A stretch of DNA of 64,000 nucleotides from Candidatus Methanomethylicia archaeon (GTDB lineage: Archaea > Thermoproteota > Methanomethylicia > Culexarchaeales > Culexarchaeaceae): contig JANXEO010000001.1 in NCBI GenBank assembly GCA_025058215.1, positions 372,001-436,000 on the forward strand, written 5' to 3'. Below, one piece after another: positions 48,549 through 54,576 of the stretch. Position 1 is the first letter of the stretch. Each line of letters begins with the position of its first letter. Below the pieces are notes generated by a model, which searched no databases, was not told where the DNA came from, and saw only the letters and a program-made list of their open reading frames with translations. The position numbers and the translations under genes are program-made.

Positions 48549-48740
48549 TCACTTTTTAGAACTTAACCACCATTTTAAATACTCTTTTTTCTTTTCTTTT
48601 TCATCTTTTAAGTTCTCTTTATCTAATTCTGCTTTAATAGATTCATATTTTGATATTGATAATCCGCATTTTACACATACAAATGCTCCTTTTCTATTAT
48701 AGTACATTTCTCCTCCACATTCAGGGCATATTCTAACCAT
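48549..48740 (-). CDS. Small zinc-ribbon protein
   Basis: The 63-residue product has one zinc ribbon, CPECGG and CVKCGLS, followed by a charged helix rich in Lys and Glu (ELDKENLKDEKEKKKEYLKWW, shown partly as ENLKDEKEKKKEYLKWW). Its first 8 bases overlap the end of the membrane HTH gene, so it is probably coexpressed with it. It resembles archaeal ribbons related to transcription factor S ends, but no specific function can be given. Confidence 0.7.
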   Translation of the reverse strand: MVRICPECGGEMYYNRKGAFVCVKCGLSISKYESIKAELDKENLKDEKEKKKEYLKWWLSSKK

Positions 48741-49362
48741 ATTTCTTCGCCAACCCTGTAATTATTTTTAGGATTATCCATGTTAATCCACCGATACTAA
48801 TATATATTACTATTGTCAGCAGGTAGGTTACTGGTATTGCGGTTACACCTATTCTTAATGCTGCTACTATTGACGTTATACTTGAAAATATAACTCCACC
48901 TTTCAATAAGTCTTTATAATTGGAATTTAAAAATCCAAGAATTAAACCATTAATTATAGACAATAAGATTATAATGTTATGTACACCGCCTAGAATAATC
49001 ATAGAAGCTCCAGTTAATAGAGGTATTGTTAATCTCACTTTAATAATGTCAATTCCATCTTTTATGGTTAATTTCCTTTTAGATTCAATTTTGATATCTC
49101 CTACACTTTTCTGCATTAGTTCTAATATCTTAACACCTTTATTTGTTAATTTGTAATTGTATCCTTTATCTACTTGAAATCTCTCTATCAAGTTTCTTTC
49201 TACCAATATTTTTAAATGTTCTGAAATTGTTGATTTAGCTTTTCCAGTTAATTTTGATAAATCGTTTAATCCAAGTTCCTTACTTCTTAACAATATTAGT
49301 ATTTTTAATCTAGTTTCTTCACTGGCAATCTTTAAATCTTCAATTTCAATTTTTTCTTCCAT
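48733..49362 (-). CDS. ArsR-like winged-helix regulator with membrane domain
   Basis: Residues 1-80 form an ArsR-type winged helix: ASEETRLKILILLRSKELGLNDL (in parts, RLKILILLRSKELG), recognition helix AKSTISEHLKILVERNLIERF and wing KGYNYKLTNKG. From residue 105 four hydrophobic segments follow (for example LLTGASMIILGGVHNIIILLS, GGVIFSSITSIVAAL and TYLLTIVIYISIGGLTWIIL, given in parts). A DNA-binding domain tethered to a membrane could couple a membrane state to transcription. The ligand and target are unknown. The divergent radA cluster starts 112 bases away. Confidence 0.75.
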   Translation of the reverse strand: MEEKIEIEDLKIASEETRLKILILLRSKELGLNDLSKLTGKAKSTISEHLKILVERNLIERFQVDKGYNYKLTNKGVKILELMQKSVGDIKIESKRKLTIKDGIDIIKVRLTIPLLTGASMIILGGVHNIIILLSIINGLILGFLNSNYKDLLKGGVIFSSITSIVAALRIGVTAIPVTYLLTIVIYISIGGLTWIILKIITGLAKKYG

Positions 49363-49474: not shown

Positions 49475-50029
49475 ATGAATTTTAAATGGCTTCTATTAAT
49501 CTCAATTATAGTGCTTGTATTTATAAACCCAATATTACCACTTATATTAATATCTCCATTGCTGATGTTATATGCTATTAGAATTATACATAATAAGAAT
49601 ACTTCTAGTAGCCATAAAGTTATTAAGGAGATTTTATTTAGGAATATGAAGTTTAATAATGGCGAAGAAGTTAAAGTTTTAATTAAATTCAAAGTTTTTG
49701 ATAGGTTTCTAAAGGTTTATGGCACTTTTGGACATATGAATATTTATAGTGGAATATCTTTTTCAGGAGTTAAAGATTTTGGTTTATTGAGGAGTATACT
49801 ATTGACTATACCCTTCAATTACTACTTAATTTTTATTGGTGGAAACACTTCTAAAGAGACTTTCATATTACTACTAAATGTTAAAGTAAGTTGGTATGAG
49901 GAAGAATCTGTAATTTCTAAAATTGTTGAAGTAATTAATTCATTATCTCTCTCTATACCTGCTAATGAAATTAAAATTCTAAATGGTTATGAACTTACAT
50001 CTAAGATACTGCCTTTTATGGAGGTGTAA
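49475..50029 (+). CDS. Membrane protein, first gene of the radA cluster
   Basis: The 184 residues begin with two closely spaced hydrophobic segments (WLLLISIIVLVFINPILPLI and PLLMLYAIRII), then a soluble domain of mixed alpha/beta character (FNNGEEVKVLIKFKVFDRFLKV, partly NGEEVKVLIKFKVFD). I do not recognise the family. The gene is two bases before the pseudo-ATPase gene, so the two should be cotranscribed. It could anchor the cluster products at the membrane, but nothing in the sequence proves this. Confidence 0.7.
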   Translation: MNFKWLLLISIIVLVFINPILPLILISPLLMLYAIRIIHNKNTSSSHKVIKEILFRNMKFNNGEEVKVLIKFKVFDRFLKVYGTFGHMNIYSGISFSGVKDFGLLRSILLTIPFNYYLIFIGGNTSKETFILLLNVKVSWYEEESVISKIVEVINSLSLSIPANEIKILNGYELTSKILPFMEV

Positions 50030-50031
50030 AG

Positions 50032-51357
50032 ATGTTTGATAATTCATTTAAATTAGAATTTATAAATTTGCATGATCTACTTCATGAAAGCAGAAATCTA
50101 ATAATAAGCTCCTTTGGTCCACTCAATTATAGATTCAAAATTAATATTTCTATAATTGATTATAGTGATTGGAATTATTGTTTAATAATAGATCCTCATG
50201 GTTTATACAAATATCTTAGAAATAAATTTATGGATTTTAAACTTTTAAAACTTGGTTTTAATGCATCAATAAATCCCTTTAGTTTTAAATCTGAAGATCC
50301 ATATTCAGAGATTAAATTTATTGTTGACATTTTTAGGTTGAGTTTCCATATAGGTGAAGATTCCGCTAGAATACTTCAAAATTCACTTATTAACTTAGTG
50401 AGTAGAGATATTTTTAATCCAAATGTTAAGGATGTAATTTCTGAAATTGAAATTCAAAGTAGTCTGTTTAGATATAGTTTAGGTATCAATAAATTACTTA
50501 GATTCCTTGATTTAATGACAGTGGGACGTGTAGGTTCATCATTCAATTTTCATCATGGTTTCACCAATTTAAAACCCGGTTTAAATGTAGTTGATATAAG
50601 TCACTTACCAGTGGAATTTAGAATTTTTTCATCACTATTAACGTTATTTCATTTTTCAAATATTTTTGATTTTATTGTAATTGAAGATGTGGATTTAATA
50701 TCTCCAGCTTTAATTAGAGCGTTGAGAGAGGAGTATGCTGTATCATTTGAACGATCAATGTTATTTTATGATATCTTAAAAGGCAAAGGTCATGGTTATA
50801 TACTACTATCTTGTTATGCTCCATCATTTATTAATCCCAAAGTTAGGTCTATTGTGAGTATAACTTTATCCCCAATACTTGTTAATGGAGAATATTTTAA
50901 TGATATAGTAGATCTTTTCTCCATAGATGACAATAATCTAAAGGTTTTTAGACATATTGATAATAAAAAGTACTTTTTAGTTTTCATTAATGGAGATTTG
51001 AAGATTTCAAATTACAGTTGTGATTTAGAGTTTAAAGGTGAATTTGAAATTGAAGATGAACTCAAAATATCTAAACCGATGAAGATAAGTGTTTTACATA
51101 AACTTTTTGGTGATAAAGCAGATTTAGCTCATAGTATTTTATCCTTTTTATCTCAAGGAACTGTTGAAAAGGATTTGATGATTGGTTATGCTACAAGTGT
51201 TTTAGGTTTAGATGGAACTGAAGCTAGGAAGATGTTAACAATTTTAACAGTTAATGGTTTGATTTTTGAAAGTATACATCGTGATGGTAAATGTCATCTT
51301 AAGATTTCCCCTATTGGTGCATCTATACTGGAGGAATATAATAGGACTGGTGATTGA
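50032..51357 (+). CDS. Degenerate HerA/VirB4-like P-loop ATPase with C-terminal winged helix
   Basis: The order of motifs follows the HerA/FtsK/VirB4 ATPases: CLIIDPHGLYKYL near residue 50, FNASINPFSF near 76, an all-helical insert near 95-160, GLNVVDISHLPVEFRIFSSL near 183 and a Walker-B-like DFIVIEDVDLISPA near 213. The Walker A position (residues 27-36, SFGPLNYRFK) lacks the Gly-Lys-Ser/Thr core, and the sensor TQ is replaced by LSCYAPSF. The protein therefore probably does not hydrolyse ATP. The last 95 residues look like a winged helix (EARKMLTILTVNGLIFES). A strong GGAGGTG site precedes ATG 50032. The family call is by motif pattern only. Confidence 0.6.
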   Translation: MFDNSFKLEFINLHDLLHESRNLIISSFGPLNYRFKINISIIDYSDWNYCLIIDPHGLYKYLRNKFMDFKLLKLGFNASINPFSFKSEDPYSEIKFIVDIFRLSFHIGEDSARILQNSLINLVSRDIFNPNVKDVISEIEIQSSLFRYSLGINKLLRFLDLMTVGRVGSSFNFHHGFTNLKPGLNVVDISHLPVEFRIFSSLLTLFHFSNIFDFIVIEDVDLISPALIRALREEYAVSFERSMLFYDILKGKGHGYILLSCYAPSFINPKVRSIVSITLSPILVNGEYFNDIVDLFSIDDNNLKVFRHIDNKKYFLVFINGDLKISNYSCDLEFKGEFEIEDELKISKPMKISVLHKLFGDKADLAHSILSFLSQGTVEKDLMIGYATSVLGLDGTEARKMLTILTVNGLIFESIHRDGKCHLKISPIGASILEEYNRTGD

Positions 51358-51358
51358 T

Positions 51359-51691
51359 TTGTTTACATTTATGAAATGGGATAATGATGGTAGAGGATTA
51401 TCAATTCAATTAAAAACTTCAGAAAAATATTCTGCTTTCTTATCTTTTAGAGCTTACAGTAATTCTATACGTATCTGTTTAATTATATATGCTAAGAGGG
51501 ATATCTCTGGTAAAATAGTTTTTGAATTATTTATGAATTTAAATGAGTTTGAATTTTTAATTAAATCCCTCCAAAAATTGAGTTCTTTGTTAAATATTGA
51601 AGGAGGGTTTTCCATTGTTAATGAATTGGATAAAGTGATAATGCATCTAAAGTGGTTAAGGAATTATATTGGAGGTGGGGGAAATGAGTGA
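51359..51691 (+). CDS. Small unknown protein of the radA cluster
   Basis: The product has about 110 residues and appears beta-rich at first (GLSIQLKTSEKYSAFLSFRA, SIRICLIIYAKRDISGKIVF), then helical (NEFEFLIKSLQKLSSLLN). No family is recognised. TTG 51359 follows GGTGAT with a short spacer and starts next to the upstream stop; ATG 51371 is an alternative. The final 8 bases overlap radA, whose ribosome-binding site lies within its last codons. Tight packing suggests that the product works with its neighbours. Confidence 0.6.
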   Translation: MFTFMKWDNDGRGLSIQLKTSEKYSAFLSFRAYSNSIRICLIIYAKRDISGKIVFELFMNLNEFEFLIKSLQKLSSLLNIEGGFSIVNELDKVIMHLKWLRNYIGGGGNE

Positions 51692-52655
51692 AGAACTTAA
51701 AAATTTAGAAGATATTCCTGGTATAGGCTCTAGTACTGCTGAAAAATTGAGGAAAGCAGGTATATACAGTCCAAAACAATTATCATTGTATAGTATAGAT
51801 GAATTAATTACATTATTGGATTTAAGCGATTACTCTAGATTAAATAAAGCTCTAATACATGTTAGAAGTGTTTTCAATAGAAGTAGAGTTATTAATGGTT
51901 TGGAATTTTCATCTATTAGAAAAAACTTACCAAAGATTTCCACAAAAGTGGATTCAATAGATAAACTTCTTAGAGGTGGAATTGAACCTAAATGTATATA
52001 TGAATTTGTAGGTGAATATGGTTCTGGTAAATCTCAATTATGTTTTCAAATATCCGTTACCACTCAATTAACTAGGAATAATGGTGGAATTGGTGGAAGT
52101 GTATTTTACATTGATTGTGAAGGAACATTCTCTGATTCTAAAATTTGTAAAATAGCTGAAAGATTCAACTTTCTCGAACCACTTAAAAATATTTTTATTT
52201 CTCAACCAGTAAATGTTGATGAACAAATAGATTTTATAAGGATTATGGCTCCTAAACTTATTGAAAATAAAAATGTTAAATTAATTGTACTTGATGGATT
52301 AATTACACATGTTAGAGCTGAGTATAAGGGTAGGGAAATGCTTGTTGCAAGACAGCAAACATTAAACTATATATTGAATTTTTTAATGCGTTTAGCAATG
52401 ATATACGATATTTACGTTGTAGTAACAAATCAAGTAATTTCTAAACCGACTTTTGGCGGTGGAATTACAGCAGCTGGAGGTAATGTAGTTGCACATGCAA
52501 CCACACATAGATTATTCCTTCAACACGCATCATCTGATTATGCAAAGAAGGGTATGGAAATTAGGAAAATGATAGTTGAAGATAGTCCATATATTCCAAG
52601 AGGTGAATATGCACTTTTTGCGATATGTGAAGAAGGGGTTATCGATGTATTATAA
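51684..52655 (+). CDS. radA: RadA-type recombinase, divergent
   Basis: RadA forms filaments on single-stranded DNA and drives strand exchange. An N-terminal helix-hairpin-helix domain (LEDIPGIGSSTAEKLRKAGI) precedes the RecA core. Walker A is GEYGSGKSQ at residues 110-118, the catalytic Glu is in YIDCEGTF (residue 146), and Walker B is LIVLDGLITHVRAEY near 200. Several usual residues differ. The polymerisation motif FxxA is FSSI (75-78), EGTFRPER is EGTFSDSK, VDSLT is LDGLI, and loop L2 lacks the usual GGH. GGAGGTGGGGGAA precedes ATG 51684. It may be the main RadA of a divergent lineage or a paralogue. Confidence 0.88.
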   Translation: MSEELKNLEDIPGIGSSTAEKLRKAGIYSPKQLSLYSIDELITLLDLSDYSRLNKALIHVRSVFNRSRVINGLEFSSIRKNLPKISTKVDSIDKLLRGGIEPKCIYEFVGEYGSGKSQLCFQISVTTQLTRNNGGIGGSVFYIDCEGTFSDSKICKIAERFNFLEPLKNIFISQPVNVDEQIDFIRIMAPKLIENKNVKLIVLDGLITHVRAEYKGREMLVARQQTLNYILNFLMRLAMIYDIYVVVTNQVISKPTFGGGITAAGGNVVAHATTHRLFLQHASSDYAKKGMEIRKMIVEDSPYIPRGEYALFAICEEGVIDVL

Positions 52656-52977
52656 TTTAAGTATTTTAGAAAAGTTTAAGTTAAAATTTAAAGATAAAGG
52701 GAGATCGTGGGTTAATCGTTGTATTGCTAGATTAAATGACGTTACTAAAACTAGTGATCCTAATGTATGGTTTGTGAAAGGTAAATCTAAATTTGGAGAT
52801 TACTATGAAATTTATAAAGTCACCTTTATTAAAAGTGCTGGAAAATATGTTTGTACCTGTTATTCAATTAGTAAAATGTATGGCTTAATTAGAATGAGGA
52901 ATATTTGTACACATGTAGGTTCTGTAATTTTATGGAGAATGCTTAAAGGTGATTTAATTGAAGAATCTAAAACTTGA
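52645..52977 (+). CDS. SWIM zinc-finger protein
   Basis: The 110-residue product has the SWIM pattern CxC-x(n)-CxH: YVCTCYS (Cys 70, Cys 72) and ICTH (Cys 88, His 90), 15 residues apart. SWIM domains occur in SWS1/Shu2, partners of Rad51 paralogues in eukaryotes, and in archaeal proteins of unknown function. Here the gene overlaps radA by 11 bases, a direct operon link between SWIM and a recombinase. ATG 52645 is chosen because longer forms lie entirely inside radA. Confidence 0.85.
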   Translation: MYYNLSILEKFKLKFKDKGRSWVNRCIARLNDVTKTSDPNVWFVKGKSKFGDYYEIYKVTFIKSAGKYVCTCYSISKMYGLIRMRNICTHVGSVILWRMLKGDLIEESKT

Positions 52978-53488
52978 AGAATTAATACATTTAGTATCTT
53001 TTACTAATACCCAAATACTATTTTTTGGTAATAGTTCTATTGCCCTTATTAATATACTCCCAAAGTTTACCTGTGAAAAGTTGTTGTTTGTATTAGAGCA
53101 ACCATTTCCACTATATAATTTTTCGAATTATGAGCAATATATACTTGAATGTGATGTTTTTAATCCATGGGATATATTTAAGTTTAAAGATATGGTTAAA
53201 ATAATTATTTATCTACCTAGATTTCCATCAATAAAGCATTACAATCATAAAACATGTGGTAAATTATCTTACAAAATTTTTATTGATAAAATTCAATTCA
53301 TACTTAAAGTTCTAAAACTTCTTTCCTTAAGACTCTTTTTAATTTTCAAAGGTGGAATTATCTCTTTTGACCCGAAACCGTATATTCATCCATACTTCAT
53401 TAACTACATAATTTCATTATTTGATTTAGCAATATACTGTGATGATGGTTTTACACTAGTAAAATCTCTTTATGAAACTGGTTTATAA
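52958..53488 (+). CDS. Unknown protein, last gene of the radA cluster, possible decayed RecA fold
   Basis: The 176 residues match no family I know. The order of hydrophobic strands recalls a small RecA-like core without catalytic residues: TQILFFGNSSIALI in place of a P-loop, KLLFVLEQPF, VKIIIYLPRFP in place of Walker B, and LRLFLIFKGGI. This comparison is speculative. TTG 52958 follows GGTGAT with a four-base spacer, a strong start. The gene overlaps the SWIM gene by 20 bases and the convergent radical SAM gene by 19. Confidence 0.65.
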   Translation: MKNLKLEELIHLVSFTNTQILFFGNSSIALINILPKFTCEKLLFVLEQPFPLYNFSNYEQYILECDVFNPWDIFKFKDMVKIIIYLPRFPSIKHYNHKTCGKLSYKIFIDKIQFILKVLKLLSLRLFLIFKGGIISFDPKPYIHPYFINYIISLFDLAIYCDDGFTLVKSLYETGL

Positions 53489-54576
53489 CATATTCCAAGT
53501 TTCTCAGCATATGTATATGCTTCATTCATTTCATTCCAAGTAATTCTTCTATTAATATCTTTATATTTTTCTGGATATTCTCTAACTAAATATTCTGGTC
53601 TATATTGTTCCATAATGTTAACTAAAGACCTAGGTATATTTTCACTTATCCATTTTAATGTAGGTTTTGTACAGCATTCAATATGATTTGGCATTACTAA
53701 ATGACGTATTATCATATCTATTGGATAATCATGCATAATCTTATGATTCCAAGAAACTATTTCAAAATATCTATCAACATTTGATAATCTTTTTGCACAT
53801 TCATTATTTCCATACTTAAAATCTGGTAATCCGATATCTATTATTTCAAGTAGTATCTTCATAGTTTCTTCACTACAATACATATTACTATTCCAAAGTA
53901 GTGGTACGTTTATATCCATATACTTTAATGATTCCACTATTGTATGTAAGTTTGGTGTTGGTTCTCCACCAACGTAATTTATATTTCTAACACCTTCTTC
54001 CCTCAATCTTCTAGATATTTTAGCAAGAGTTTTTGCATCTACTTTTAAACCACCATGTGGATGCAACTGACTTATATCATAATTTTGACAGAATACACAT
54101 CTAAAATTACATGATGAAAAGAATATTGTTCCACTTGGCACTAATGGAGCTTCTTCACCCCAATGGTGAAACCATGATGAAACATAAGTATTTGAATCCA
54201 ATCTGCAGAAACCAGGTTTAATTCTTCTATCCACCTTGCATCTTTTTTCACAAAATACACATTCCTTTAGAATTCTATTTACAATTTCTATTTTTAAATC
54301 TAAAAAATTCTTACTTGGAATAGGAAGTTCTTCAAGCTTCAATTTACCATGTACAATTTTCTCGTAAGCTTCTTTGAATTCTTTTGCTCTTTTCTCATGT
54401 TCTATCCATAAATCTTCAAGAGCTTCATCTTCTTTAAATTCTGATGATATTCTTTTACATATGCGGTATTTTGCTGGTTTTTGATTTCTCATAACCGCTA
54501 AATACCATGAAAGTCTATTTTTAACTTCTCGATCTTCAAGCACGTATATCGAATCTGGTCTTAGTAATAAATTCAT
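53470..54576 (-). CDS. Radical SAM protein, PflX-like (COG1313)
   Basis: The radical SAM motif is CNFRCVFCQN near residue 154, which is CxxxCxxC. It is preceded by a Cys-rich segment CVFCEKRCKVDRRIKPGFC near 111 that may hold a further cluster or zinc. Later motifs YVGGEPTPNLHTIVESL and PDFKYGNNECAKRLS match the PflX/activase-like family, whose targets are unknown. Length of 368 residues is typical for the group. The 3' end overlaps the last gene of the radA cluster by 19 bases, tail to tail. Confidence 0.85.
   Translation of the reverse strand: MNLLLRPDSIYVLEDREVKNRLSWYLAVMRNQKPAKYRICKRISSEFKEDEALEDLWIEHEKRAKEFKEAYEKIVHGKLKLEELPIPSKNFLDLKIEIVNRILKECVFCEKRCKVDRRIKPGFCRLDSNTYVSSWFHHWGEEAPLVPSGTIFFSSCNFRCVFCQNYDISQLHPHGGLKVDAKTLAKISRRLREEGVRNINYVGGEPTPNLHTIVESLKYMDINVPLLWNSNMYCSEETMKILLEIIDIGLPDFKYGNNECAKRLSNVDRYFEIVSWNHKIMHDYPIDMIIRHLVMPNHIECCTKPTLKWISENIPRSLVNIMEQYRPEYLVREYPEKYKDINRRITWNEMNEAYTYAEKLGICYKPVS

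Follow-up and report, generated by a model that had tools for sequence, protein, structure and literature searches.

A conserved radA2-SWIM gene cluster of Thermoproteota as a candidate accessory system for RadA

Six tightly packed genes in the stretch of DNA analyzed here (64,000 nucleotides, hereafter the window) recur in the same order across Thermoproteota and may encode a set of accessory proteins for the recombinase RadA. The window comes from a 452-kb metagenome-assembled genome (MAG), 46% complete, of the class Culexarchaeia (Thermoproteota), and the genes, g1 to g6, lie on its plus strand at positions 49475-53488. In our judgment, the chances are even that the cluster encodes a membrane-linked accessory (mediator) complex of homologous recombination for RadA, of the RAD51-paralogue/SWIM type and Shu-like in composition, a reading put forward from sequence comparison and gene context. 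An earlier reading of the window, made from its letters without database searches (the sequence-only reading), had already proposed that these products act together to load or regulate RadA, possibly at the membrane. The ends and spacings that it gave for the six genes are reproduced to the base by the open reading frames (ORFs) and the sequence, with distances from g1 to g6 of +2, +1, -8, -11, and -20 bases:

g1, 49475..50029, plus strand: membrane protein with an N-terminal hydrophobic hairpin and a soluble domain of ~140 amino acids, of no known family
g2, 50032..51357, plus strand: predicted pseudo-ATPase of the FtsK/HerA/VirB4 fold without Walker A, having a winged-helix region at the C terminus
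g3, 51359..51691, plus strand: small protein between g2 and radA2, TTG start, conserved in the alignment
g4 (RadA2), 51684..52655, plus strand: full-length RadA paralogue with a helix-hairpin-helix (HhH) domain, intact ATPase residues and an altered L2 loop, ATG start
g5, 52645..52977, plus strand: SWIM protein with the pattern CxC...CxHxx(A/S)
g6, 52958..53488, plus strand: syntenic gene whose family is RecA/RadA-like in other lineages, the window copy being too degenerate for recognition from its sequence

Conservation of the cluster was surveyed by tblastn and gene calling around RadA2, with families given as codes (f1, f2, and so on). The order g1-g2-g3-radA2-SWIM-g6 is found in 14 genomes from 8 families of Thermoproteota, the window included; the other carriers are G001, G002, and G003 (f1), G005 (f2), G007 and G024 (f4), G010, G014, and G016 (f7), G012 (f8), G028 (f9), G342 (f60), and G382 (f66). 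In the f7 clusters g6 is short, in G012 masked bases interrupt g2, and G382 is counted as having the full order although its g1 is a 104-amino-acid ORF missed by the profile. Sister genomes are Candidatus Culexarchaeum nevadense, of the same family as the window, and Candidatus Culexmicrobium profundum, of the same order. The cluster is thus not unique to this contig; uniqueness was what the sequence-only reading had named as refuting its proposal. SWIM matches occur in 12 of the 40 genomes of the class, every one immediately behind RadA2, and this, together with the recurrence in distant genomes, argues that the order is not due to chance. The flanking housekeeping genes are the same ones within Culexarchaeia and different elsewhere, and it is therefore the unit itself that is kept. 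The core of four genes (membrane protein, HerA-like protein, small protein, and RadA2) is spread over more families than the full order. In G358 (f62), g2 to g5 are present, a membrane protein replaces g1, and g6 is missing, while the order in f52 runs membrane protein, g2, a second g2-like gene, SWIM, RadA, and a Cas4-like nuclease. A limited search outside Thermoproteota returned one SWIM protein, in Archaeoglobales, with no RadA nearby.

The product of g4 matches the Rad51 family (PF08423, E 1.8e-54) and lies above the cutoff of the RadA model PRK04301 (273 bits against 259) and under that of TIGR02236. It fails the test for RadB (TIGR02237, 106 bits against a cutoff of 172) and has the HhH domain. 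As canonical RadA is encoded by a second gene elsewhere in G001, G002, G003, and G005, with 38-40% identity to RadA2, RadA2 is, as judged from these complete relatives, a paralogue alongside a separate canonical RadA. A tree of 57 RadA rows parts canonical and Cdc6/Orc-linked RadAs from all HerA- or SWIM-linked RadAs with a branch support of 98/98, its root being unknown, some of its branches long, and the placement of single deep lineages unsure. Another kind of extra RadA in the class (L042, L049, and L052), which keeps the FxxA Phe discussed below, stands behind what looks by eye like an Orc1/Cdc6-like P-loop ATPase and a small winged-helix-like gene.

Residues at functional positions were counted in the tree set plus four more sequences, many of which are related and a few of which duplicate one protein. 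None of the 42 RadA2-side proteins deviates at the Walker A Lys, the Walker B Asp, or the catalytic Glu. The Phe of the FxxA motif, which is needed for self-binding of RAD51/RadA and forms the ball of a ball-and-socket polymerization contact (PMC4855620, PMC5480776), is present in 19 of 19 canonical-side RadAs versus 1 of 42 on the RadA2 side, with Val in the window. Similarly, the Phe pair of the L2 loop is found in 19/19 canonical-side proteins and in a minority of those on the RadA2 side. By FxxA, RadA2 lacks one defining feature of a recombinase, and losing the polymerization Phe is what one would expect if it were a mediator and not a second recombinase.

Directly behind RadA2, g5 would supply the SWIM partner. 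The Pfam SWIM model missed g5 in the window's genome, where it falls below the threshold despite its CxC...CxH pattern, and we therefore built our own SWIM profiles. These match in 76 of 398 sampled Thermoproteota genomes, and the g5-based profile reaches proteins with a borderline match to PF04434, the link running through L062. Shu2/SWS1 SWIM proteins are partners of RAD51 paralogues and carry the signature CXC...Xn...CXHXXA (PMC6316741). All 13 aligned SWIM proteins have CXC...CXH and 10 have the complete CXC...CXHXXA; in the remaining three (window, L033, and L054) the last Ala of the signature is Ser. SWIM genes also occur apart from RadA: G170 and G195 (f34; L087 and L092) have 9-11 matches per genome, scattered, with no RadA nearby and some with stops, which looks like a proliferating family. 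In G219, at a site separate from its RadA2 core locus, a KaiC-like ATPase gene (L058:7194-8332) overlaps a SWIM gene, another pairing of SWIM with a RecA fold.

The last gene, g6, had been left as unknown by the sequence-only reading; this holds for the window copy, which cannot be recognized from its sequence, and does not hold for the family, which is RecA-like in other lineages. In L041 the P-loop of g6 is intact (GEAGAGKT), and the protein shows similarity to RecA chains and a weak one to RadA chains; g6 of four lineages taken together (L041, L043, L054, and L055) matches the RadA2 profile with P 6e-11. A RecA ancestry of the window g6 is suggested by its position, equivalent to that of the RecA-like copies in these four lineages. 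An AlphaFold2 (AF2) model of g6 reached a mean predicted local distance difference test score (pLDDT) of 54 and gave no usable fold match.

The AF2 model of g2, built from 14 relatives, has a pLDDT of 83, and its best solved matches in Foldseek are VirB4 (4ag6, E 1.2e-8, probability 1.00) and HerA (4d2i, E 3.8e-8). By profile search, g2 likewise matched VirB4 (4ag5, E 1.4e-4), and its C terminus gave a weak match to a PadR winged helix (E 0.009); comparison with intact membrane-bound HerA-like ATPases of Thermoproteota gave P 3e-22. When g2 is aligned in register with the GxTGSGKS of those ATPases, GK[ST] is found in 0 of 18 g2 proteins. By this confident model, g2 has the FtsK/HerA/VirB4 fold and, lacking Walker A, is a predicted pseudo-ATPase. 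Homologues of g1 stand at the equivalent place in L033-L041, L043, L053-L055, L108-L110, and L114; sequence comparison of g1 with the N-terminal domain of HerA-like ATPases gave nothing, and to regard g1 and g2 as a split VirB4 is a guess. No convincing relative of g3 was found in the PDB, and a resemblance to PC4 was seen by eye only and is not claimed.

A link to double-strand break processing is provided by one genome, the Guaymas Basin MAG Thermoprotei archaeon B15_G16 (G342; L053/L104), in which gene order ties the module to end resection. Here, nurA-herA-mre11-rad50-g1-g2-g3-radA2-SWIM-g6-zinc finger all share a strand, g1 follows rad50 after a gap of 24 bases, and the gene after g6 encodes a C2H2-coiled-coil protein. 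The HerA fold is common to this end-resection operon and g2; unlike its HerA, g2 lacks Walker A, and the module of Culexarchaeia lies away from nurA. The HerA of B15_G16 (L104:9816-11900) has a C-terminal SWIM-like CxxC...CxH stretch. In variant clusters, a small Cas4-like protein of the PD-D/E-XK type adjoins RadA or SWIM (L081:119-643, L088:9239-9751, and L078:8142-8654).

When these results are placed together, the sequence-only reading emerges as partly supported overall and strengthened by gene context. Its HerA-like pseudo-ATPase (a HerA/VirB4-type model, with Walker A absent in all 18 proteins), its divergent RadA (distinct from canonical RadA), and its SWIM partner are all borne out, and the recombination setting that it supposed agrees with the nurA-herA-mre11-rad50 directon of one genome and with the Cas4-like nuclease gene of a variant lineage. 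It also knew of no described system of this composition, and we found none in the open literature, our coverage of which leaves out most subscription papers. As a mechanism for the proposed accessory complex, we propose that RadA2, SWIM, and g6 would assemble into a hetero-complex able to bind resected single-stranded DNA, where it would aid the nucleation or retention of the separately encoded canonical RadA, that g1 and g2 would act as an inactive ring or clamp keeping complex and DNA at the membrane, and that the divergently encoded membrane ArsR-type protein described below could control the operon.

The closest parallel is the Shu complex (Shu2/SWS1 with SWSAP1 or Csm2-Psy3), where a SWIM protein of the CXC...CXHXXA type likewise accompanies divergent RAD51/RecA-family proteins and the canonical recombinase is encoded separately. 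The archaeal cluster differs from the Shu complex in including a VirB4/HerA-fold pseudo-ATPase together with a membrane protein, and in having a full-length RadA2 whose ATPase residues are intact. The likeness of g5 to Shu2/SWS1 lies in the zinc-binding signature, and what points to a complex here is gene order and gene overlap. RadB, the mediator of Euryarchaeota, is comparable as a RadA paralogue proposed to aid RadA polymerization; RadA2 differs from it in being full length with the N-terminal HhH and in sharing an operon with SWIM and HerA-like genes.

Several observations weigh against an accessory complex of this kind. The core stands with no adjacent SWIM or g6 in f6, f45, f47, and f51 (for f6, L040 was read closely and other members by coordinates), so that the core would not require SWIM. 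A single event inherited by all RadA2s may account for the missing FxxA Phe. The SWIM profile found no PDB chain at E <= 10, and the culexarchaeal g6 taken alone has no detectable RecA similarity in comparison with the RadA2 profile (P 0.28).

The best-placed rival, which we nevertheless hold to be unlikely, is a domesticated DNA-transfer machine, in which g1 and g2 would derive from a VirB4/CedB-like import ATPase and RadA2 and SWIM would serve as something like a dedicated recombination arm of Ced/Ted-type exchange, handling imported single-stranded DNA so that it can integrate. That the top structural match of g2 is VirB4 speaks for it, as do the HerA-like and Rad50 genes in Ted loci (PMC9905601), and the VirB4/HerA fold beside a membrane protein recalls CedB, CedD, and TedB. 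The cluster departs from such systems in having RadA2 and SWIM, in lacking the active P-loop (Walker A is missing from g2 throughout), in containing no pilin or CedA-like channel gene that we recognized, and in a g1 unlike the N-terminal domains of these ATPases. Further support comes from f18, where SWIM and RadA paralogues occur with membrane HerA/TraG-like and TrwB-like ATPases whose P-loops are both intact. The f18 cassettes (L061-L066; G048, G055, and G185), made up of these two ATPases, SWIM, and a RadA paralogue and with as many as six copies of SWIM in a genome, may be integrative elements or a system for DNA transfer. Searching plasmids with the f18 RadA gave no link to mobile elements. 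SWIM is multicopy in G150 as well.

The intact ATPase residues and the retained HhH domain could also be accommodated if RadA2 were simply a second recombinase, used under a special condition together with accessory factors of its own, but with the polymerization Phe lost in 41 of 42 proteins and the L2 Phe pair in most, this seems improbable to us. Anti-phage systems often contain HerA-like proteins, and a defense or element-control system assembled from HerA-like and RecA-like parts could further draw on the Cas4-like nuclease in f52 and the multiple copies per genome in f18; we rate it as quite improbable, as PADLOC gave only a weak P-loop match among the window proteins, the cluster sits on the chromosome, in Culexarchaeia at a syntenic place flanked by housekeeping genes, and none of the viral contigs searched was found to have the cluster. 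Neutral co-inheritance of unrelated genes is very hard to reconcile with an order kept across families whose flanks differ.

If the accessory complex is real, it may bear on recombinase loading in crenarchaea, which are reported to be without the mediator RadB (PMC5480776): the cluster gives a concrete candidate helper, from thermophiles whose proteins are likely to be purifiable. The partnership of SWIM with a RAD51 paralogue would then be dated before eukaryotes or have arisen twice. A bolder version, rather doubtful at present, is that Thermoproteota have an ancient, membrane-anchored, Shu-like mediator in which RadA2, SWIM, and a RecA-like pseudo-paralogue sit on a dead VirB4/HerA-type translocase, that the SWIM/RAD51-paralogue pairing predates eukaryotes, and that recombinase loading is physically tied to end resection by nurA-herA-mre11-rad50.

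The cluster is bordered in the window by two genes on the opposite strand:

ArsR-type winged-helix gene, 48733..49362, minus strand: divergent from g1, with a C-terminal transmembrane (hydrophobic) region (PF01022, E 4.1e-11)
radical-SAM gene, 53470-54576, minus strand: convergent, with a 19-base overlap with the downstream end of the cluster

Most of the clusters compared are accompanied by a divergent ArsR-type gene. Its homologues adjoin or stand near g1 in L033-L036, L037-L040, L043, L054, and L055, and similar helix-turn-helix genes adjoin g1 in L109, L110, and L114; the protein is likely to be a cluster-linked regulator. Behind the ArsR-type gene, a small gene for a zinc-ribbon protein (window, 48549-48740) keeps its place in Culexarchaeia (L033 and L036).

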